DNA from: a virus
IMG/VR virus record: IMGVR_UViG_3300047557_004450
Span: 1 to 24,560 of that record
Reading direction: 5' to 3' (one strand)
Length of the DNA stretch: 24,560 nt
A model generated the notes under the pieces. That model was not told the origin of the DNA. It ran no database searches and saw only the letters and a list, made by a program, of their open reading frames with translations. A program made the position numbers and the translations under genes. Below are positions 3,668 through 21,778 of this stretch, piece by piece; position 1 is the first letter of the stretch, and every line of letters begins with the position of its first letter.

Positions 3668-3853
3668 TTATTCAGTTAAAAGCTGATATAAAGTAGCGTT
3701 TGTACAGGTTAAATACAACTTAAAAATGTATTCAGATTCTACAATTGTCCATTCAATTTCTAGAAATCCTATTTCAGACCTATATTGATCTAAAATAAGA
3801 GAAATTTCTTGATATTTTGAAGCTGGATAAGCTTTAGTAATTGATTTTATCAT
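3668..3853 (-). CDS. Small hypothetical protein downstream of prs
   Basis: The protein has 61 residues and begins at an ATG that overlaps the prs stop codon as ATGA, which points to translational coupling. No good separate ribosome-binding site is visible. The sequence is a mix of hydrophobic strands and charged residues with no signal peptide or clear membrane segment, and it matches no family I recognise. It is the last gene of the bS21-to-Prs run; the late promoter at 3646-3653 follows just after its stop. Confidence 0.6.
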
Positions 3854-4782
3854 TCAAATAGGCTACTTACACTTCTTTCCTCGTTAATACGACACATAGC
3901 TTCAGCTAGAAGTGGACCAATGGATATTTGACGAATATTTGGCGTGTTTGCTACAGCGGTAGTAGCCTGGATACTATCTGTAATTGTCATAGCAGTAAAT
4001 GGAGAGTCTTTAATTTTTCCTGTGGCGCTTCCACTAAAAACACCATGTGTGCAGTATGCAGCAACTGATACTGCTCCATTTTTTATAAGAGCATTAGCCG
4101 CATTTACCAGTGTTCCACCACTATCCACAATATCATCTATCAATATGCAGTTTCGTCCAGTTACGTCACCAATCACATTCATGACTTCGCTTACCCCGGC
4201 CTTTTCACGACGCTTATCAATAATTGCCAAGTCACTATTAATACGTGTTGCTATAGCTCGCGCACGTACAACTCCACCTACATCTGGGCTTACAATAATA
4301 GGATCAAGATTTTCAAACCGTTCTTTAATATCTTTTGAAAAAAGTGGAGCAGCATATAGATTATCTACAGGAATATCAAAAAATCCTTGAATTTGGCCAG
4401 CATGTAAATCCATAGTAAGAATTCTATCCGCCCCTGCCACGGTTATAAGATTAGCTACTAACTTAGAACTGATTGGTGTTCGTGGACCACTTTTACGATC
4501 CTGTCTAGCATATCCAAAATATGGCATCACAGCAGTCACCCTTTTAGCACTGCTACGCTTTAAAGCGTCCAGTGTAATCAATAACTCCATAAGGTGATCA
4601 TTAGCAGGAAAACTCGTTGATTGAATAACAAATACATCCTCGCCTCTTACATTCTCATGAATTTCAGCGAATACTTCATGATCATTAAACTTTTTTATTG
4701 TGGCAGATGTAAGTGGGATATCTAGGCATGCTGAAATAGCATTTGCCAAGTTTTTATTACTATTACAAGAAATTATTTTCAT
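3850..4782 (-). CDS. prs: Ribose-phosphate pyrophosphokinase (PRPP synthetase)
   Basis: This enzyme makes PRPP from ribose 5-phosphate and ATP, feeding purine, pyrimidine and NAD synthesis. The 310 residues match the full family length. Visible landmarks are [10 protein letters not shown] at about 88-97, [12 protein letters not shown] at 125-136, SPDVGG at 165-170, the DKRRE catalytic loop at 189-193 and the PRPP-binding loop [12 protein letters not shown] at 213-224. The C-terminus ends in VSSLFE. The wording of several segments ([30 protein letters not shown]) is close to alphaproteobacterial Prs. All key residues are present, so it should be active. It overlaps a 47-residue membrane ORF at its start and couples by ATGA to a 61-residue gene at its end. 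In a phage it would support dNTP supply together with NrdB. Confidence 0.95.
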
Positions 4783-4906
4783 ATTTTTTTGCCTTTCTCT
4801 GGTAGCTCTTTATGTGGTAGAATGCTATGAATAACCCTGCTATTCCAACAAATAGCAGACAGTATAAAATAAAAAGAGAGGAAAATAAGGTATCAATCTC
4901 AATCAT
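4763..4906 (-). CDS. Tiny single-span membrane protein overlapping prs
   Basis: This 47-residue ORF starts at an ATG that overlaps the stop of the Fe-S carrier gene (ATGA) and runs 20 bases into prs in another frame before a TAA. It has an acidic N-terminus, one hydrophobic stretch at about residues 7-30 and a strongly basic tail (KSYQRKAKK), a normal layout for a single-pass inner-membrane protein with its tail in the cytoplasm. It fills the gap between two real genes that would otherwise be empty. No family is recognised; a short membrane-associated phage protein is the most that can be said. Confidence 0.55.
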
Positions 4907-5229
4907 ACAGAAAAGCTTGCCCCACAACCACACTTACTTTTTTCATTAGGGTTATTAAAAACAAGACCACTTTTAAATGGTGTACTTTCAAAATCAATAA
5001 TAATACCCATTAAAAAAATAATGGATTTATAATCAAGATATAAAACGCAATCATGTTGATTTATTACTTCGTCTTTAGGATCAATAAGGTCGTTATTACT
5101 TAAATGATAACTCAGGCCGGAACAACCTTTACTTTTTACACTTAATTTCAACGACTCTCCGGTTTTTGATAACGACTTTATGTAAGATGCTGCAGATGGG
5201 GTTAGAGATACAATTAAATTCCGATCCAC
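4903..5229 (-). CDS. A-type Fe-S cluster carrier (IscA/ErpA/SufA family, HesB-like)
   Basis: The 108-residue protein is a complete A-type carrier, which accepts an Fe-S cluster from a scaffold and passes it to target enzymes. The three cluster-binding cysteines are in place: Cys36 in KGCSGLSY and Cys100 and Cys102 in KCGCGASF near the C-terminus. It starts with GTG at 5229. A weak late-type octamer (AATAAATA) lies 27 bases upstream, but no good ribosome-binding site is seen. The sequence cannot tell whether it is IscA, SufA or ErpA type. Neighbours give no obvious Fe-S client; NrdB in this phage uses a di-iron site rather than a cluster. Confidence 0.88.
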   Translation of the reverse strand: MDRNLIVSLTPSAASYIKSLSKTGESLKLSVKSKGCSGLSYHLSNNDLIDPKDEVINQHDCVLYLDYKSIIFLMGIIIDFESTPFKSGLVFNNPNEKSKCGCGASFSV

Positions 5230-5242
5230 GTTTTTGATACCA

Positions 5243-5329
5243 TCAGTTGAAAAATCTATTTATTGAAACAACTGTCAGTCCAATAACAACAAAAATGAAT
5301 AGACAAAAATAAAATGCGTCCTTTTTCAT
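5243..5329 (-). CDS. Very short single-span membrane peptide
   Basis: This 28-residue ORF begins with an ATG 4 bases after the clpS stop and ends in TGA 13 bases before the Fe-S carrier start. After a short charged N-terminus (MKKDA) there is a hydrophobic segment of about 18 residues. The ribosome-binding site is weak (AGAAG within the end of clpS). It fills the clpS-carrier gap neatly, like the 47-residue membrane ORF on the other side of the carrier. It could be a chance ORF. Confidence 0.35.
   Translation of the reverse strand: MKKDAFYFCLFIFVVIGLTVVSINRFFN
5257..5264 (-). promoter_or_regulatory. Possible late promoter octamer (AATAAATA)
   Basis: The minus strand reads AATAAATA, a fit to the cyanophage-type NATAAATA late box, 27 bases before the GTG of the Fe-S carrier. 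The spacing matches that of the stronger box before the structural gene. It lies within the 28-residue ORF and could be a coincidence in AT-rich DNA. Confidence 0.25.
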
Positions 5330-5333
5330 TGTA

Positions 5334-5636
5334 TTATACTTCTTCTACGGTCGCCATCAGTGGGAAATTGTTGTATCTGGCAGCTTTCAATGTTTCATCT
5401 TTTTTTTGCAGAGCAATTTCAAATGAGTATGTGCCAGCTATTCCTTTATCATGTTCATGGATTTGAACACAAAGGTCATATGCCTCTTCTGGACTTTTAT
5501 GAAATATTTTAATTAAAATCAGTATGACGAAGTCCATAGTAGTGACATCATCATTATGCAAAATGACATTATATTTGCTTGGGGGACGCATGCTTGTTTT
5601 AGTCTTGGTTTGAATATCAACATCTAAATCAATCAT
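5334..5636 (-). CDS. clpS: ClpS-like N-degron adaptor
   Basis: ClpS binds proteins with a destabilising N-terminal residue and delivers them to ClpAP protease. The 100 residues match the family length and layout: a flexible N-terminal tail, then YNVILHNDD at 22-30 and TTMDFV at 32-37, which form the pocket that grips the N-terminal amino group (Asn28, Asp29, Asp30, Met34), His60 in QIHEHDKG, and TYSFEIALQK at 69-78. The pocket residues seem intact. A GGGAG ribosome-binding site lies 6 bases before the ATG. No clpA is present here; the phage encodes ClpX instead, so this adaptor may redirect host ClpAP, act as a competitor of host ClpS, or work with phage ClpX in a new way. These are inferences. 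Confidence 0.88.
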   Translation of the reverse strand: MIDLDVDIQTKTKTSMRPPSKYNVILHNDDVTTMDFVILILIKIFHKSPEEAYDLCVQIHEHDKGIAGTYSFEIALQKKDETLKAARYNNFPLMATVEEV

Positions 5637-5682
5637 GCGTCACTCCCAGTTAGCCCTATTCTAGTCTAAGATACTGAATAAG

Positions 5683-6141
5683 TCAAGTGTTACTTGGTTT
5701 TGTATCAATAGTGATTTTTTTGGGTTTCATGCTTTCTGGCAATTCCTGTTGGAAATCCAGCGTCAGAATGCCATCAATTAATGACGTATTCGTTACATTT
5801 ACCCATGCATTTAAGTAGAATGTTCGTTTAAAGTTTCTGCTGGCAATACCTTTGTGTAAAAATACCTTTTCTGCAGTATCTTTATCCGCATTCCCAACAA
5901 TTTCTAACACTCCATTTTGAAGTGTGATTTCAATGTCGTCTGCACTAAACCCAGCAACTGCCATATGTAAGCGATAACGCTCATTATCCAGTTTCTCCAG
6001 ATCATAAGGCGGATAGCTGTCTGTGATTGTGTTACGAACTTTGTCAAGCATTCGAAAAGTTGGTTCAAATCCAACTGCATATCGATTAAGTTCACGAAAC
6101 ACTTCATCAAGCTGACTGTTCAATGTTGTAATACTTCTCAT
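5683..6141 (-). CDS. Small heat-shock protein, Hsp20/IbpA type
   Basis: The 152-residue protein has the IbpA-like layout: an N-terminal arm of about 45 residues, an alpha-crystallin domain with NGVLEIVG and IDGILTLDF strands, and a C-terminal ITI (I-x-I) motif at about residues 142-146 that docks neighbouring subunits. Such proteins bind unfolding proteins without ATP. Hsp20 genes are known in T4-like marine phages, where they are thought to aid folding or virion assembly. Its ribosome-binding site, GAGGAGG 6 bases before the ATG, is one of the strongest in the window. Two hairpins lie in the gap before it (6175-6240), so it may be expressed or processed separately from the bS21 gene. Confidence 0.92.
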   Translation of the reverse strand: MRSITTLNSQLDEVFRELNRYAVGFEPTFRMLDKVRNTITDSYPPYDLEKLDNERYRLHMAVAGFSADDIEITLQNGVLEIVGNADKDTAEKVFLHKGIASRNFKRTFYLNAWVNVTNTSLIDGILTLDFQQELPESMKPKKITIDTKPSNT

Positions 6142-6174
6142 GGTTTACCTCCTCTATTTGAGCAAAGTATTTTG

Positions 6175-6199
6175 AAAATTAGACCCTAATGGCGTCTAA
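6175..6199 (-). terminator. Weak terminator-like hairpin before hsp20
   Basis: On the minus strand TTAGAC and GTCTAA form a 6-base-pair stem around a 9-base loop, followed by a short TTTT run. It lies after the bS21 stop and before the hsp20 ribosome-binding site. It may be a weak terminator or part of a processing site. Confidence 0.35.
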
Positions 6200-6204
6200 A
6201 CTGG

Positions 6205-6240
6205 AACCCCAGTGTCACATATATAGGAAGCACTGGGGTT
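6205..6240 (-). repeat. Perfect 10-bp inverted repeat after the bS21 gene
   Basis: AACCCCAGTG at 6205-6214 pairs perfectly with CACTGGGGTT at 6231-6240 around a 16-base loop. It starts 10 bases after the bS21 stop codon. No T-run follows on the minus strand, so it may be an RNA stability or processing element or a protein-binding site rather than a simple terminator. Confidence 0.6.
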
Positions 6241-6249
6241 GATTTCAAG

Positions 6250-6543
6250 TCACATGTTGTTTTTATTTTCTATAATTTTTTTGTCAAGTTTTTTACGACG
6301 TTTGTATGGACTTTCAATATCCATAATCTGATTATATTTCTTCTTCCAGCGAAGAATAGCCTCTGCTTTCTTCTGACGGCGTCTAATACTCTTTGGAACA
6401 AAATGCTTACGCTTACGTAACTCTTTATTAATGCCTTCACTATTCATCCTACGTTTAAGCTGACTGATTGCAGATTCAATATTATTGTTAATAACCTTAA
6501 CAGTCATACCTTTTTTCTTAAAGCTTGTATCATCATAATCCAT
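6250..6543 (-). CDS. rpsU: Ribosomal protein bS21 homologue
   Basis: bS21 sits on the small ribosomal subunit near the anti-Shine-Dalgarno site and helps choose start sites. The 97-residue protein carries the family core: VKVINNNIESAISQLKRR, then an Arg/Lys-rich helix with LRKRKHFVPKS and RRRQKKAEAILRW. A strong AAAGGA ribosome-binding site 7 bases before the ATG at 6543 supports the longer start, so a 12-residue N-terminal extension before the core is probably real. The basic C-terminal tail is also longer than in most bacteria. Phage-borne bS21 is known in some marine and huge phages. A sigma70-like promoter is visible at 6568-6597, overlapping the end of infC. Replacement of host bS21 on ribosomes is inferred. 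Confidence 0.88.
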   Translation of the reverse strand: MDYDDTSFKKKGMTVKVINNNIESAISQLKRRMNSEGINKELRKRKHFVPKSIRRRQKKAEAILRWKKKYNQIMDIESPYKRRKKLDKKIIENKNNM

Positions 6544-6567
6544 GTTTATATCCTTTGATGTTATTAC

Positions 6568-6597
6568 ATTATTTGTATATTATATGCTTATTGTCAA
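6568..6597 (-). promoter_or_regulatory. Sigma70-like promoter before rpsU
   Basis: On the minus strand TTGACA (6592-6597) and AATAAT (6568-6573) are separated by 18 bases. The -35 box overlaps the infC stop codon TGA. The predicted start point leaves a leader of about 20 bases containing the strong AAAGGA site. Confidence 0.4.
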
Positions 6598-7175
6598 ACT
6601 TTTTTTTGACTCGGTGCAATTATTGCACTTAATATTCTGCCATTTAGTTCTGGTTCCTTTTCAATTTTGCAAGGCCCAAGTCCAGTAATAAATGTGTTTA
6701 AAACATCATAGCCCTTTTCAGTAAATCCAATTTCTCTACCTTTGAATTTAATAACTACTTTAACTTTTGCACTTTCTGCCAGAAAGTTTTTTGCATGCTC
6801 TTGTTTCACCAAAATATCATGCCTGTCTGTAACTGGCCGCAGTTGAATTTCTTTCATCACTGTTGCATTTTCGCGTGCCTTTTTTTCTTGCTCTTTTTTA
6901 CTTTTCTTTAATGAATAAATCCATTTACCAACATCCCCAATTTTAACCACAGGTGGAGTTGCAACTGAAGTGACCTCTATTAAGTCAAGTCCTTTATTTC
7001 TTGCAATACCAAGTGCATTTCGCGTTGGCATAACTCCAAGCGCCTGTCCATTCTCATCCATTACACGGACTTCAGTATGCTTTATTCTTTCGTTATAAAT
7101 TACTGAATCTTTCACATGATCCTCAATTTTTCGTGAAATTTTTCTTTCATTTGTATTTTGATTGTAATTTTTCAC
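6594..7175 (-). CDS. infC: Translation initiation factor IF-3
   Basis: IF-3 binds the 30S subunit, blocks premature 50S joining and checks the start codon and initiator tRNA. The 193 residues cover both domains: the N-terminal domain begins at VIYNERI (about residue 25) and includes LDLIEVTSVATPPVVKI, the linker is Lys-rich, and the C-terminal domain has KEIQLRP, DRHDILVK, KVKVVIKFKGREI and a final KIEKEPELNGR. The length is only slightly above the usual 180. It starts with GTG at 7175, overlapping the clpX stop as GTGA, with an AGGAG site 7 bases before. The first 24 residues are a charged extension. A complete IF-3 gene in a phage is rare and, beside bS21, suggests phage control of initiation. 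Confidence 0.93.
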   Translation of the reverse strand: MKNYNQNTNERKISRKIEDHVKDSVIYNERIKHTEVRVMDENGQALGVMPTRNALGIARNKGLDLIEVTSVATPPVVKIGDVGKWIYSLKKSKKEQEKKARENATVMKEIQLRPVTDRHDILVKQEHAKNFLAESAKVKVVIKFKGREIGFTEKGYDVLNTFITGLGPCKIEKEPELNGRILSAIIAPSQKKV

Positions 7176-8413
7176 GAAATAGCTCCTACGTTGTTGTCAT
7201 ATACCTTTAATGGTTCACTCATATTTTCAATTGTCTCCTTTGTAATACATATTTTTCTTACACCACTTTTATAAAGACTGGGTAGATCAAACTGAACGCC
7301 GAGTAGAATATTTTCTACAATACTACGCAGTCCTCTTGCCCCTGTCTTTCTAATCATAGCCAATCCAGCAATACTTTTAAGGCTGTCTTGACTAAATTCC
7401 AATTCAATATTATCTAATTTAAACATTTTTTGATATTGTTTGCAAATTGCATTTTTAGGTTCAGTTAAGATGCGAATAAGAGCATCCTCATCTAAATCGT
7501 CAAATGCAACGACGATAGGAAGACGGCCAATCATTTCAGGAATTATACCAAACTTGACCAAATCCTCACTACGAACATCTCGTAAAAGCATACTATTAGA
7601 TTTTTGAAAATCAGGGTCGTTCAATGAACTATTAAATCCTATACCACTGACTACATCATTTTGTCTTTTCTCAATTATTTTAGAGAGTCCTTCAAATGCC
7701 CCACCAACAATAAAAAGAATATTTTTTGTATTGACAGTAATAAAATCACCATTTGGATTTTTTCTGCCACCTTGGGGTGGGATTTTTACTTCACAACCTT
7801 CAATCATCTTCAATAGAGCTTGTTGGACTCCTTCTCCAGAAACATCGCGCGTAATGCTTGTGTTTTCGCCTTTTCTGGACTTCTTATCAATCTCGTCTAT
7901 GTAGATAATACCACGTTCTGTCTTCTGGATGTCCATCTCCGCAGCATGATATAGCTTGGTAACGGCGTCTTCAACGTCTAGTCCCACATAGCCACTTTCA
8001 GTAAGACTGGTAGCATCAACTATCGCAAAGGGCACATCCAAAATTTTCGCAACATTTTGAATTGTAAATGTTTTACCGGTGCCACTTGAACCGATAAAAA
8101 GCATATTACTTTTATCAATTTCAACACCTTCAATGATAGGATTGTTAATTCTTTTTACATGATTATAAACTGCAACTGACAGAACTCGTTTGGCTAGATC
8201 TTGACCAATAATGTATTCGTCTAATCTGCTTTTTATTTTTGCAGGTATAATGTCCTTTTCGCCAATAATTCTGGGAGTATCTTGCTTTATAATGTCATAA
8301 CATAGATTGACACATTCATTGCATATGAACACATCATTCCCAGCTATAAGCTTACGAACTTGTTGTTGATTTTTATCACAAAAACTACAGACATGAAATG
8401 TCTTAGCTGTCAT
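7172..8413 (-). CDS. clpX: ClpX, ATP-dependent unfoldase
   Basis: ClpX unfolds tagged proteins and feeds them to ClpP. The chosen ATG at 8413 gives 413 residues and has AAGGA 8 bases upstream; an ATG at 8464 in the same frame lies inside the previous gene and is unlikely. Landmarks in order: the N-terminal zinc domain with two CxxC pairs (CSFC and CNEC), Walker A GSSGTGKT, the pore loop SGYVG, Walker B IIYIDEID, a second pore-loop region, the IGF loop (SGIGFNS) that docks into ClpP, GRLPIVVAF, and the sensor-2 motif TGARGLRS near the C-terminus. All functional parts are present, so it should use host ClpP, since no clpP is in the window. It couples to infC by GTGA. Confidence 0.95.
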   Translation of the reverse strand: MTAKTFHVCSFCDKNQQQVRKLIAGNDVFICNECVNLCYDIIKQDTPRIIGEKDIIPAKIKSRLDEYIIGQDLAKRVLSVAVYNHVKRINNPIIEGVEIDKSNMLFIGSSGTGKTFTIQNVAKILDVPFAIVDATSLTESGYVGLDVEDAVTKLYHAAEMDIQKTERGIIYIDEIDKKSRKGENTSITRDVSGEGVQQALLKMIEGCEVKIPPQGGRKNPNGDFITVNTKNILFIVGGAFEGLSKIIEKRQNDVVSGIGFNSSLNDPDFQKSNSMLLRDVRSEDLVKFGIIPEMIGRLPIVVAFDDLDEDALIRILTEPKNAICKQYQKMFKLDNIELEFSQDSLKSIAGLAMIRKTGARGLRSIVENILLGVQFDLPSLYKSGVRKICITKETIENMSEPLKVYDNNVGAIS

Positions 8414-8429
8414 AGGTTTTTTTCCTTTT

Positions 8430-9590
8430 TTATAACCATGTATTTGGCTTTGATGATACATCATTGTTAGTCAATGATACACCAGATGTGGAACTTGTCA
8501 ATGTCACGTTGGAATTAATTACGTCAACATGTGTATCAATCTTAGATTCCTTAATGGATTGATCTATAGGATCTTGTAGGGAGTTTTCACTGCTACGCTC
8601 AGTAGTGGCCAACCAAGCATTCATAGCTTTTTTAACAGTATCTTCAATCACATCTTTTTGTAATACTGGAAATTGGTGAGTATCTAAACTATTTTTTATT
8701 ATGTGTTGAGTACGTTCTTGGAACTCTTCATATGAAAACTGTTGGGATTGCGTAGTAGTTCCCAAGGTAATAGGATGCAAATCAACCCCATCAAAGTACA
8801 TCAATGAATTCTTTTGCAAATCGTAGTAAGTTTGACCAACTGGAACATTCTTAGTATGAACTGGTTTTACACTCATATTTGCGGCAATTAACATCAATAC
8901 AGCTAGAGGGTCAAACACAAGTACAATAACTAATATCATATATTTAACCGCTTTATCATAATCTATATTTTTATCAGAATAAAAAAGCTGGGCAATATAT
9001 TTTATCGGTCCAAGTTCACTCTCAAGTATATTATTCTTTTGCTGAAGAGATTTCTCTTGCATTTCTAAATCAATAAGTTTCTGCCGTTGTCCTTCCAATC
9101 GCGAATTTATCTCAGCCCGTTCTTGCTGTTGACGATTACGGGCCGCAAGTGCTTGCGTTGCACGGTTGTTATCAAGTTGAATATTAATAGACCTGTCAAG
9201 TTGTGCTAGTTGGTTGGTCAGTTGTGAAATTGATTCGTTCACCAAGTTCTTTTGACGTTCAATATTTTTTAATTCTAAAGTAACTTCAGCAGTGTTAAGT
9301 TTTTGATCAGTATGTGCCCTGGTCAGAAATCCAAAAATCCCCAGGCTTGTAATTAACATCAAGACTATAACACTGATTGTTAAATAGGTTTTTAGGAAGT
9401 TATTTATTGTATTCCATTTTTGGTACAACCAGCTAGCACAAACCAGCTTACTAATTTCAAGCACTGCTGCCATTACAATAACGGGAAAATAAGCCGCTGA
9501 AAAAATAGCAGCCAATCCAACTATACTGTAATAGGCGGCAACAGTGCTTAGTGTTATTGCACAGGCAAACAGTAATTTGCTGATATTCAT
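8430..9590 (-). CDS. Membrane protein with coiled coil, unknown function
   Basis: The protein has 386 residues. Three hydrophobic segments lie at about 5-30, 32-55 and 68-90. A long Gln/Glu/Lys-rich coiled coil fills 96-195, a fourth hydrophobic segment lies at about 215-238, and the 150-residue tail is polar and Ser/Thr-rich. This layout places the coiled coil between membrane spans 3 and 4. It resembles conserved membrane proteins of marine T4-like phages that have no known role; that resemblance is from memory. It couples to the SpeD-like gene by ATGA and is followed 16 bases later by clpX. It could be an envelope-remodelling or exclusion protein, or a virion component; the sequence does not decide. 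Confidence 0.75.
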   Translation of the reverse strand: MNISKLLFACAITLSTVAAYYSIVGLAAIFSAAYFPVIVMAAVLEISKLVCASWLYQKWNTINNFLKTYLTISVIVLMLITSLGIFGFLTRAHTDQKLNTAEVTLELKNIERQKNLVNESISQLTNQLAQLDRSINIQLDNNRATQALAARNRQQQERAEINSRLEGQRQKLIDLEMQEKSLQQKNNILESELGPIKYIAQLFYSDKNIDYDKAVKYMILVIVLVFDPLAVLMLIAANMSVKPVHTKNVPVGQTYYDLQKNSLMYFDGVDLHPITLGTTTQSQQFSYEEFQERTQHIIKNSLDTHQFPVLQKDVIEDTVKKAMNAWLATTERSSENSLQDPIDQSIKESKIDTHVDVINSNVTLTSSTSGVSLTNNDVSSKPNTWL

Positions 9591-10000
9591 GAATCACTCG
9601 TAGAAAATTCACCACGATCCAAAATTTTAAAATCAGTTTCTCTATCTAGAAATTTATAGCTGGCAGAAACTACATCAAAATGTTTGGAGATAAATTCCAT
9701 AACTTCGTTAACTTGAAAAGGAGCGCATGAATATAAATCAAATTGCATTACGCTATCATGTGGGTCTGGGAAGTTCCAAATATGCATGGCACAGTGACTG
9801 GTAGTGAGAATCACTGTACTGGTAATACCTTCGTTGCCAAGGTCACTGCACCAAGCAGACACTGGTTCAATCATGACTTTCATACGTACATGTGAAACCA
9901 ACCCTCTCATAAATTCATTTACTTTATCACAATCATTTGGTCCAGGAGGGTTTTTAATTTTAGCGTTAATTAATAAATGAAGGTGAGCAGATGGTTTCAA
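9587..10000 (-). CDS. SpeD-like pyruvoyl-dependent decarboxylase (AdoMet or arginine)
   Basis: The 137-residue protein has the fold signature of bacterial AdoMet decarboxylase proenzymes. Such proteins cut themselves and turn a serine into the pyruvoyl cofactor. By alignment with Thermotoga SpeD, Ser68 is the pyruvoyl serine, His73 the processing histidine and Cys92 the proton donor; all are present (TTSHCAMHIW, DLYSC). Two changes stand out. The residue before the serine is Thr instead of Glu, and HTWPE is HIWNF, so the glutamate expected to hold the AdoMet ribose is missing. It may therefore use another substrate, such as arginine or ornithine, as known for some SpeD-derived enzymes. The start is TTG at 10000, supported by GGAAGGA 9 bases upstream. 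It is the second gene after the late promoter at 11195-11202. A separate agmatinase gene lies at 20858-21778. Confidence 0.75.
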   Translation of the reverse strand: MKPSAHLHLLINAKIKNPPGPNDCDKVNEFMRGLVSHVRMKVMIEPVSAWCSDLGNEGITSTVILTTSHCAMHIWNFPDPHDSVMQFDLYSCAPFQVNEVMEFISKHFDVVSASYKFLDRETDFKILDRGEFSTSDS

Positions 10001-10018: not shown

Positions 10019-11167
10019 TTAGACACCAGAAATCTGGGTTACAGTGATATTTTGTTCTATAGTAGTGATAGATGCAACAGAAGTCAAGCCATCAGCTTGA
10101 ATGGATTCAATATTTGCTGCATTTGGACGATCACATCCAGCCCCAAAATTTTCCAGAGTTGGATTAAATAATTTCCTGTTGCTAACCATAGACGCTACAA
10201 GAGCGCGTGCTACTGCGCGTTTTACAGCTGCAGTTCCCGTATAAACCGTGCCAGCGTCAGGTTCAGTAGAGAGAGCAACAACGCGCACTGCGTCTGGTTG
10301 ATCATATCCAACAGTAAATGTAATGGTATCAGTTGCAACATTGCCAATATTACCTGTACGACTGATGCTACCTAGCATGTTAGTTGTAGCAAAAGACTGC
10401 AATTCACTGATCATTTGGGTCCAGCGCATATTAGCCCTTTCTTTAGCCTGACTGTTGGCTAAAGTTGAAGGGAATCCACCGTAATTGCCCAAAGTAAATC
10501 CCATATTTGTAAATGCATTACCGCTGTTAATTGTGTATGGCTCACCCTTAACAGAGGTTAATTGTAGATAAGGGCCAGCAGGTTGTGCAACAACACTGGT
10601 TTGTGCTGTTAATGAATTCATTTGAGTACTTACCCCAGCGGTAGTTAGTGGACCACCTGTAAATGATATGTTTACCCCATTTATTGTTACGTTACTGTCT
10701 GTTGTCACAGAAGTAAAAGCAGTGCCCACTGTTGAAGGATAGTTAGAATATGTACCAGCAGTTAAACCAAGGGTTGATAGCGCGGTGCCAACACCAGCAG
10801 CGATCCAAAACGGCGTACCTTCAAACCCAGGAGCATTCATAAGAGTTACATATCCACCGGCAACTTGCTGACTAGCCGCAACATTTGTAAATGTGGTTGC
10901 CGCATTGATTTTGCTAAGTATGGTAGTTATAGTGTCAGCATTAGTAAATTGAATACTATATCCATTGATAACGATTGTATCTCCATTAGTCAATGGAGTA
11001 CCAACTACAGCCGCTGTACCTGTTGTCATAATTGTTGAATTTATTTGCCACGCAGTCTCAGAGTCTAACCCCCCATTACTATTACCGGTTAGAGCAGAAT
11101 AATCAGTTGGACTTCTTAGGTTCCAAGTGACTTGATAATATGTTGGGTTAAGAGAGTAAGTTGCCAT
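10019..11167 (-). CDS. Putative virion structural protein with two IN-like repeats
   Basis: The 382-residue protein is rich in Thr, Ser, Gly, Val and Asn, as in phage tail or fibre proteins. Two tandem repeats are visible at about residues 62-146 and 157-235. Each begins with a strand like VxING(Y/V)xIxF, then a helix with an N-x-x-T run, then Y(V/L)xL, G-x-P and a terminal LG-x-YxxxPST or LGNYGGFPST. This pattern resembles the IN motif found in flagellin and hook-associated proteins. The C-terminal 140 residues hold a helical stretch (RANMRWTQMI) and a strand-rich part. A perfect late octamer lies 27 bases before the ATG, with AAGGA at a normal distance. A late virion protein is well supported; its exact place in the particle is not. 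Confidence 0.75.
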   Translation of the reverse strand: MATYSLNPTYYQVTWNLRSPTDYSALTGNSNGGLDSETAWQINSTIMTTGTAAVVGTPLTNGDTIVINGYSIQFTNADTITTILSKINAATTFTNVAASQQVAGGYVTLMNAPGFEGTPFWIAAGVGTALSTLGLTAGTYSNYPSTVGTAFTSVTTDSNVTINGVNISFTGGPLTTAGVSTQMNSLTAQTSVVAQPAGPYLQLTSVKGEPYTINSGNAFTNMGFTLGNYGGFPSTLANSQAKERANMRWTQMISELQSFATTNMLGSISRTGNIGNVATDTITFTVGYDQPDAVRVVALSTEPDAGTVYTGTAAVKRAVARALVASMVSNRKLFNPTLENFGAGCDRPNAANIESIQADGLTSVASITTIEQNITVTQISGV

Positions 11168-20857: not shown

Positions 20858-21778
20858 TTATTGATCATTGTAAATATTTTGACTGAGATATTGCCATACA
20901 AATGTAGCTGCTGCCAAACTAGTTATTTCAGCATGGTCATAAGCAGGTGCAACTTCACAGCAGTCCATGCCTACCCAATTGATATGTTTTCGACCCATGT
21001 TTTGTTGCCCCAGACAAGTAATCAATTCTTTCAACCAAATCGTAGATAACCCACCTATTTCAGGTGTACCTGTACCTGGAGCAAATGCTGGGTCTAAACA
21101 ATCAATATCTAGACTTAGATAACAAGGTTTTTTAGATATATGATCTTTTATAAAATCACTCATGACTTCTGGTGAACGATTCATGGCACTCATAGCTGAA
21201 ATAGTTTTACCTCCTAAATTAGAAAGGTAATTTAAGTCTTTTTTATCTGCAGGACTACGAATTCCAATACTAATTGTAGTTTTTGCATCTACAATACCCT
21301 CTTCAATAGCATTATACAACCACGTTCCATGCCCATATTTTTGACCAAAATGGTTTGACCATGTGTCACAGTGAGCATCAAAATGTATTATACTAATCTT
21401 GTCTTTGACCGTGTCTTTAAGACCTCTTAACACGCCCAGTGTGGTTAAATGATCTCCACCAAGAACAACAATGTTACTACGGTACTTTTTAATACTATCT
21501 TCAATAACATTAAGACTATTTTCTACATTTCCAGATGGTATTGGTATATCTCCAGAATCTCCTGTAAACTCCGAAATGTTTACAGGATATCTGGTGTTCT
21601 GTCCATCTGTAAGCATCATGCTTGCATTTCGTATAGAGTTAGGCCCCATACGAGCACCACTTCTGTACGTGGTTGCAGTATCCCATGGGGCACCAATAAC
21701 TACAAATTTCTGATCAACAAAGTTAGGAACGCCACAAAAGTTGCGTGTAGAACCATATTGATACGGAAGATGCATCAT
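20858..21778 (-). CDS. speB: Agmatinase/arginase-family ureohydrolase
   Basis: Members hydrolyse agmatine, arginine or related guanidino compounds, giving urea and, for agmatinase, putrescine. The 306 residues match SpeB length. The manganese-binding motifs are complete: GGDH, FDAHCD and SLDIDCLDPAFAPGTGTPE, followed by MDCCEVAPAYDHAEITSLAAA. The sequence around YRSGARMGPNSIR fits agmatinases better than arginases, but substrate choice is not certain from sequence alone. It couples by ATGA to the upstream 113-residue gene and is followed by an 87-residue gene. With the SpeD-like gene at 9587-10000 it points to phage control of polyamine supply. Confidence 0.88.
   Translation of the reverse strand: MMHLPYQYGSTRNFCGVPNFVDQKFVVIGAPWDTATTYRSGARMGPNSIRNASMMLTDGQNTRYPVNISEFTGDSGDIPIPSGNVENSLNVIEDSIKKYRSNIVVLGGDHLTTLGVLRGLKDTVKDKISIIHFDAHCDTWSNHFGQKYGHGTWLYNAIEEGIVDAKTTISIGIRSPADKKDLNYLSNLGGKTISAMSAMNRSPEVMSDFIKDHISKKPCYLSLDIDCLDPAFAPGTGTPEIGGLSTIWLKELITCLGQQNMGRKHINWVGMDCCEVAPAYDHAEITSLAAATFVWQYLSQNIYNDQ

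Follow-up and report, generated by a model that had tools for sequence, protein, structure and literature searches.

The 24,560-base virus record analysed here (the window, a fragment) encodes a small homolog of the AdoMet decarboxylase SpeD whose sequence makes it very probable that it still functions as a pyruvoyl enzyme but not on AdoMet. On balance, we lean towards the reading that this protein acts on arginine. It would be a SpeD-derived, self-cleaving pyruvoyl decarboxylase, processed at Ser68 and no longer serving AdoMet, that removes the carboxyl group of L-arginine to give agmatine, which an agmatinase encoded by the same phage would then convert to putrescine and urea. In this way, the infected cell would gain a PLP-independent route to putrescine with two enzymes. 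The features involved are listed below by position in the window.

9587..10000, minus strand: SpeD-type pyruvoyl decarboxylase gene, predicted from its Pfam AdoMet_dc match, its fold match to T. maritima and its conserved orthologs (137 aa, TTG start)
9797..9802, minus strand: codons of Thr67 and Ser68, the predicted self-cleavage site and pyruvoyl serine (Ser68 invariant, Thr67 invariant within the clade)
9770..9784, minus strand: codons of HIWNF (residues 73-77), replacing HTWPE in the 1TLU alignment; His73 is the predicted processing/catalytic histidine
9725..9727, minus strand: codon of Cys92, the invariant counterpart of T. maritima C83
8430..9590, minus strand: 386-aa gene with no assigned function, the 3' border of the SpeD slot; its start overlaps the SpeD stop as ATGA, and it is kept beside SpeD in relatives
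10019..11167, minus strand: 382-aa gene with no assigned function and no family match, the 5' border of the SpeD slot, also kept beside SpeD in relatives
20858..21778, minus strand: agmatinase (ureohydrolase) gene, 306 aa, the proposed second step, from TIGR01230, six metal ligands and co-occurrence in the near clade

The SpeD-like protein matches the Pfam family AdoMet_dc (PF02675; E 2.2e-11, 44.5 bits against a gathering score of 25) and does not pass TIGR03330, the NCBIfam AdoMet decarboxylase equivalog (32.9 bits against a cut-off of 75.65). Its AlphaFold2 model (pLDDT 93) matches the T. maritima AdoMet decarboxylase (1VR7/1TLU) with Z 14.0-14.1 over 111-112 residues. The two proteins share this fold and the processing and catalytic Ser, His and Cys, although they are 14% identical (structures 1TLU, 1TMI and 1VR7) and the ESH and HTWPE of the T. 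maritima enzyme are replaced in the window protein. In the alignment with 1TLU, Ser68, His73 and Cys92 correspond to S63, H68 and C83, Thr60 to S55, Thr67 to E62, and HIWNF (73-77) to HTWPE (68-72). The first-pass annotation was right in stating that the pyruvoyl serine, processing histidine and catalytic cysteine are kept, that Thr instead of Glu precedes the serine, and that HTWPE has become HIWNF. Thr60, Thr67, Ser68, His69, His73, Gln86, Asp88, Tyr90 and Cys92 are invariant across 46 homologs of the clade. Among orthologs at 70-75% protein identity, pN is 0.17-0.22 against a pS of 0.70-0.94, at which synonymous sites are saturated. Together with the invariant residues, these values point to purifying selection on a gene that is not a chance open reading frame, and this selection is what makes a working pyruvoyl enzyme very probable. 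The agmatinase gene is also under purifying selection. Orthologs L001, L003 and L006 share the TTG start of the SpeD gene and the Lys-Pro that comes next.

Which residues mark the substrate is less straightforward than the first-pass annotation had proposed. The glutamate of HTWPE, Glu72 in T. maritima, is presumably the equivalent of human Glu247. The human residue binds the ribose of AdoMet (PMC3686867), and the loss of its counterpart in HIWNF had been taken as a sign that AdoMet use was lost. This argument does not hold, as the motif reads HFCDV in phiN3 and HYWID in phiYS40, both proven AdoMet decarboxylases (PMC9992855) that lack the glutamate, whereas it reads HSWDE in the SpeD homolog of pelagiphage HTVC201P (AXH71538), a pyruvoyl arginine decarboxylase with no ornithine or lysine activity (PMC9992855) that retains it. 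The glutamate therefore cannot separate AdoMet enzymes from arginine enzymes. A proline has been reported as a mark of true AdoMet decarboxylases (PMC10407285); if this is the proline of HTWPE, it is, for the same reason, not decisive in phages. On the sequences compared, the threonine before the pyruvoyl serine, present in 46 of 46 clade members, is a better marker than the loss of the glutamate. However, this threonine alone does not separate arginine from ornithine enzymes. The reported markers of ornithine enzymes (SpeDC) are Gln, Thr, Phe and Tyr (PMC10407285). By residue type, Thr67, Gln86 and Tyr90 are candidates for them in the window protein, and the arginine enzyme HTVC201P shares all three.

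Among annotated phage records, the nearest SpeD homologs are pelagiphage proteins at 27-36% identity, HTVC201P among them. Much closer relatives were found in IMG/VR, where a near clade at 70-75% identity (L001-L006, L017, L018 and L208, the last on contig G046) carries TTSHCxxHIWN throughout. Its sister group (42-48% identity, support 100/98) has the motif ATSHASIHVWD, and both sit in a large clade with ETSHIAxHxWDE proteins from phages, SAR11 and gammaproteobacteria. This TSH clade contains HTVC201P, though not as the nearest branch to the window protein, and excludes (94/92) the enzymes of T. maritima, S-PM2, phiYS40 and phiN3, all proven AdoMet decarboxylases; in the first tree, that of P2559S was also outside it. 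The tree has 134 columns and many of its forks are weak, but the window clade and the sister group are well supported. The phage collection yielded no sequences of the ornithine decarboxylases LBP and UCP01-04, and the tree was built without them. The window protein thus groups with the HTVC201P clade, apart from the proven AdoMet decarboxylases that were included, and the first-pass proposal of a changed substrate survives the phylogeny.

TSH-type homologs also occur in cellular genomes (SAR11 and gammaproteobacterial loci among L093-L135), and a plasmid search gave no SpeD match. At one locus (L107:5995-6375), the gene directly after the TSH-type SpeD resembles alanine dehydrogenase. The cellular homologs were considered as a guide to substrate and set aside, since no recognisable polyamine gene was seen by eye in the raw open reading frames around 11 loci.

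The agmatinase named in the first-pass annotation is real by its family match. The product of the gene passes the TIGR01230 agmatinase equivalog (197.6 bits against a cut-off of 174.3) and has all six metal ligands (His110, Asp134, His136, Asp138, Asp224 and Asp226), which are invariant in 20 aligned sequences. It shares the ureohydrolase fold family and these ligands with E. coli-type agmatinase SpeB (7LOL, 7LBA) and with guanidinobutyrase (3NIO), and its PDB scores to agmatinase and guanidinobutyrase are almost equal. It differs from E. coli-type SpeB in that its score of 284.9 narrowly misses the SpeB subfamily cut-off of 302, while it passes the agmatinase equivalog. The idea that it might instead be an arginase feeding an ornithine decarboxylase was rejected, as it failed the arginase model (79.2 against 227.6 bits).

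The agmatinase accompanies the window-type SpeD in related contigs. In a search that started from SpeD alone, agmatinase was detected in six of eight near-clade contigs, these being all six of at least 50 kb, and in none of 32 contigs with other TSH-type SpeDs, 14 of which are at least 50 kb. The reverse search, from agmatinase, found SpeD in three of 17 further contigs, many of the 17 being short. These three are G046, with a window-type SpeD (L208), G054, where a divergent phiN3-like SpeD lies about 1.1 kb downstream of agmatinase, and G055 (607 kb, L221:12396-14630), where an ETSH-type SpeD fills the SpeD slot, flanked by the 382-aa and 386-aa genes. In G050 (L211:1322-4271), agmatinase is kept but the slot is empty, the 382-aa gene being separated from the 386-aa gene by 50 bases, which counts against a strict coupling of SpeD and agmatinase. 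The empty slot of G050 and the ETSH-type occupant in G055 indicate that SpeD can be lost or swapped in this position. Because the contigs are kin, the co-occurrence does not represent many independent events.

Near-clade contigs keep the gene order 382-aa gene, SpeD, 386-aa gene, ClpX, IF-3, S21, Hsp20 and ClpS. In the window, host-like genes for PRPP synthetase, an IscA-type Fe-S protein, ClpS, Hsp20, ribosomal protein S21, IF-3 and ClpX occupy 3850-8464, all on the minus strand. Sinorhizobium phage Phosso (469 kb) has matches to ClpX, IF-3, S21 and both topoisomerase subunits, and Agrobacterium phage Atu_ph07 (490 kb) also matches ClpX; the near-clade orthologs thus occur in jumbo-phage contigs related to these two phages. 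From this kinship, one might guess that the host of the window phage is an alphaproteobacterium. No match to SpeD or agmatinase was found in either Phosso or Atu_ph07. In Phosso, a protein of the glutathionylspermidine synthase family is annotated close to ClpX and IF-3 (L223:14623-15792), which may be a further polyamine link.

One relative, G001 (IMGVR_UViG_3300032315_001715, 452,799 bases), encodes three SpeD homologs, one of them of window type. The other two (L161:5149-5511 and L162:5878-6297) are a canonical-looking protein with AESHLSWHHYPE and a phiN3-like protein with ETSNIAAHFVE, in which Asn follows the predicted pyruvoyl serine. A second SpeD in one genome has been used as one sign for picking re-purposed copies (PMC10407285). 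Searches of the near-clade contigs found no spermidine synthase, no SpeY of the deoxyhypusine-synthase type and no PLP-dependent ornithine or arginine decarboxylase. The speH-speH-speE-speB cluster of Microcystis phage MaAM05 (MW495066, L209, 240345-253133) was set aside as a phage precedent; it lies next to purL, purF and guaD, and its genes are the same set as reported for Vampirovibrio, so it is probably bacterial DNA.

The first-pass suggestion of an arginine decarboxylase stands in part. Its glutamate argument falls away, while the failed TIGR03330 match, the clade shared with a proven phage arginine decarboxylase and the conserved agmatinase all speak for it, and the agmatinase pairing is what favours arginine over ornithine. 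SpeDA and SpeDC are SpeD-derived pyruvoyl arginine or ornithine decarboxylases of bacteria and archaea, in which SpeDA is often encoded with agmatinase (speB) (PMC10407285). Two traits of SpeDA are seen here, namely the grouping with a proven arginine decarboxylase and an agmatine-using enzyme in the same genome. However, the cellular genes are mostly clustered, whereas the phage genes lie 11 kb apart, and this distance weakens the arginine reading, as in Methanolacinia an unclustered speB accompanies a SpeD that decarboxylates ornithine. The reading is also weakened because HTVC201P, the sole proven arginine decarboxylase in the clade, is only 29% identical to the window protein. Both have Thr before the pyruvoyl serine, the QxDxYxC block and the catalytic Ser, His and Cys, but HTVC201P has ETSH and HSWDE where the window protein has TTSH, HIWNF and a longer loop. 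Furthermore, no agmatinase is reported for the HTVC201P pelagiphage, whose host may supply it, whereas the window phage encodes its own. A third weakness comes from the freshwater and lake phage homologs LBP and UCP01-04, four of five of which prefer ornithine and act on arginine little or not at all, while the fifth takes both (PMC9992855). These enzymes are described as similar to HTVC201P and have lost AdoMet activity (PMC9992855); they differ in using ornithine, and the comparison with the window clade is by description only. They raise the possibility, which we hold only tentatively, that the window protein is a pyruvoyl ornithine decarboxylase of the SpeDC type, or one acting on both ornithine and arginine, that makes putrescine directly while the agmatinase uses agmatine from an arginine decarboxylase of the host. 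This would fit the Thr that precedes the serine and the Tyr two positions ahead of the catalytic Cys, which recall two of the four reported ornithine markers, and also the retention of agmatinase without SpeD in G050. However, the agmatinase goes with the window clade and with none of the 32 contigs carrying other TSH-type SpeDs, the sister clade included, and the pairing would have no reason if putrescine were made directly.

It appears improbable that the protein has remained an AdoMet decarboxylase, with an unusual active site, and feeds decarboxylated AdoMet to a host spermidine synthase. The divergent phiN3 enzyme provides a model for this, as it restores spermidine in E. coli without HTWPE (PMC9992855), so that odd motifs are compatible with AdoMet use, and an agmatinase together with an AdoMet decarboxylase would also suit spermidine synthesis. 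Nevertheless, the TSH clade does not include phiN3 or its kin, and phiN3 has an acid (Asp) before the serine where the window protein has Thr. In addition, the tested close homologs HTVC201P, BAR31446, LBP and UCP01-04 all failed to restore spermidine (PMC9992855), and G001 already has a canonical-looking SpeD. Very unlikely, in our view, is a different substrate or role, either some other amino acid or, with decarboxylation lost, a part as a regulatory or structural partner. Compared with T. maritima, this subclade has four extra residues in the segment after HIW, and compared with HTVC201P two, and it lacks both motif glutamates; its pocket is therefore unlike that of any characterised member. 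Against this, the processing and catalytic residues are all invariant, the gene is under purifying selection, and lysine is used by none of the tested relatives (PMC9992855, PMC10407285). The arginine reading, with agmatine passed to the phage agmatinase, remains the one we prefer.

The conversion of SpeD to arginine and ornithine decarboxylases in phages was published in 2023 (PMC9992855), so the kind of event is known. The literature searched, which comprised open-licence papers, gave no report of the window subclade, its jumbo-phage lineage or the conserved pairing with a phage agmatinase. That 2023 study names a single phage genome with more than one polyamine enzyme, an AdoMet decarboxylase and a spermidine synthase (PMC9992855). 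We consider the prospects evenly balanced that a lineage of Atu_ph07-like jumbo phages carries a complete PLP-free route from arginine to putrescine, formed by a phage agmatinase and an arginine decarboxylase that derives from SpeD and belongs to a new subclade, and that a canonical-looking AdoMet decarboxylase is added in at least one member. The phage would then provide the two precursors of spermidine, with aminopropyl transfer alone left to the host. If true, this would be a phage-encoded putrescine pathway built on a re-purposed enzyme, in jumbo phages. It would raise the question of why phages of about half a megabase make their own diamine, whether for the charge balance of their DNA or for translation, given that they carry IF-3 and S21. 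The subclades with TTSH/HIWN, ATSHAS/HVWD and ETSH/HxWDE would offer a test set for the residues that set the substrate in the SpeD family.
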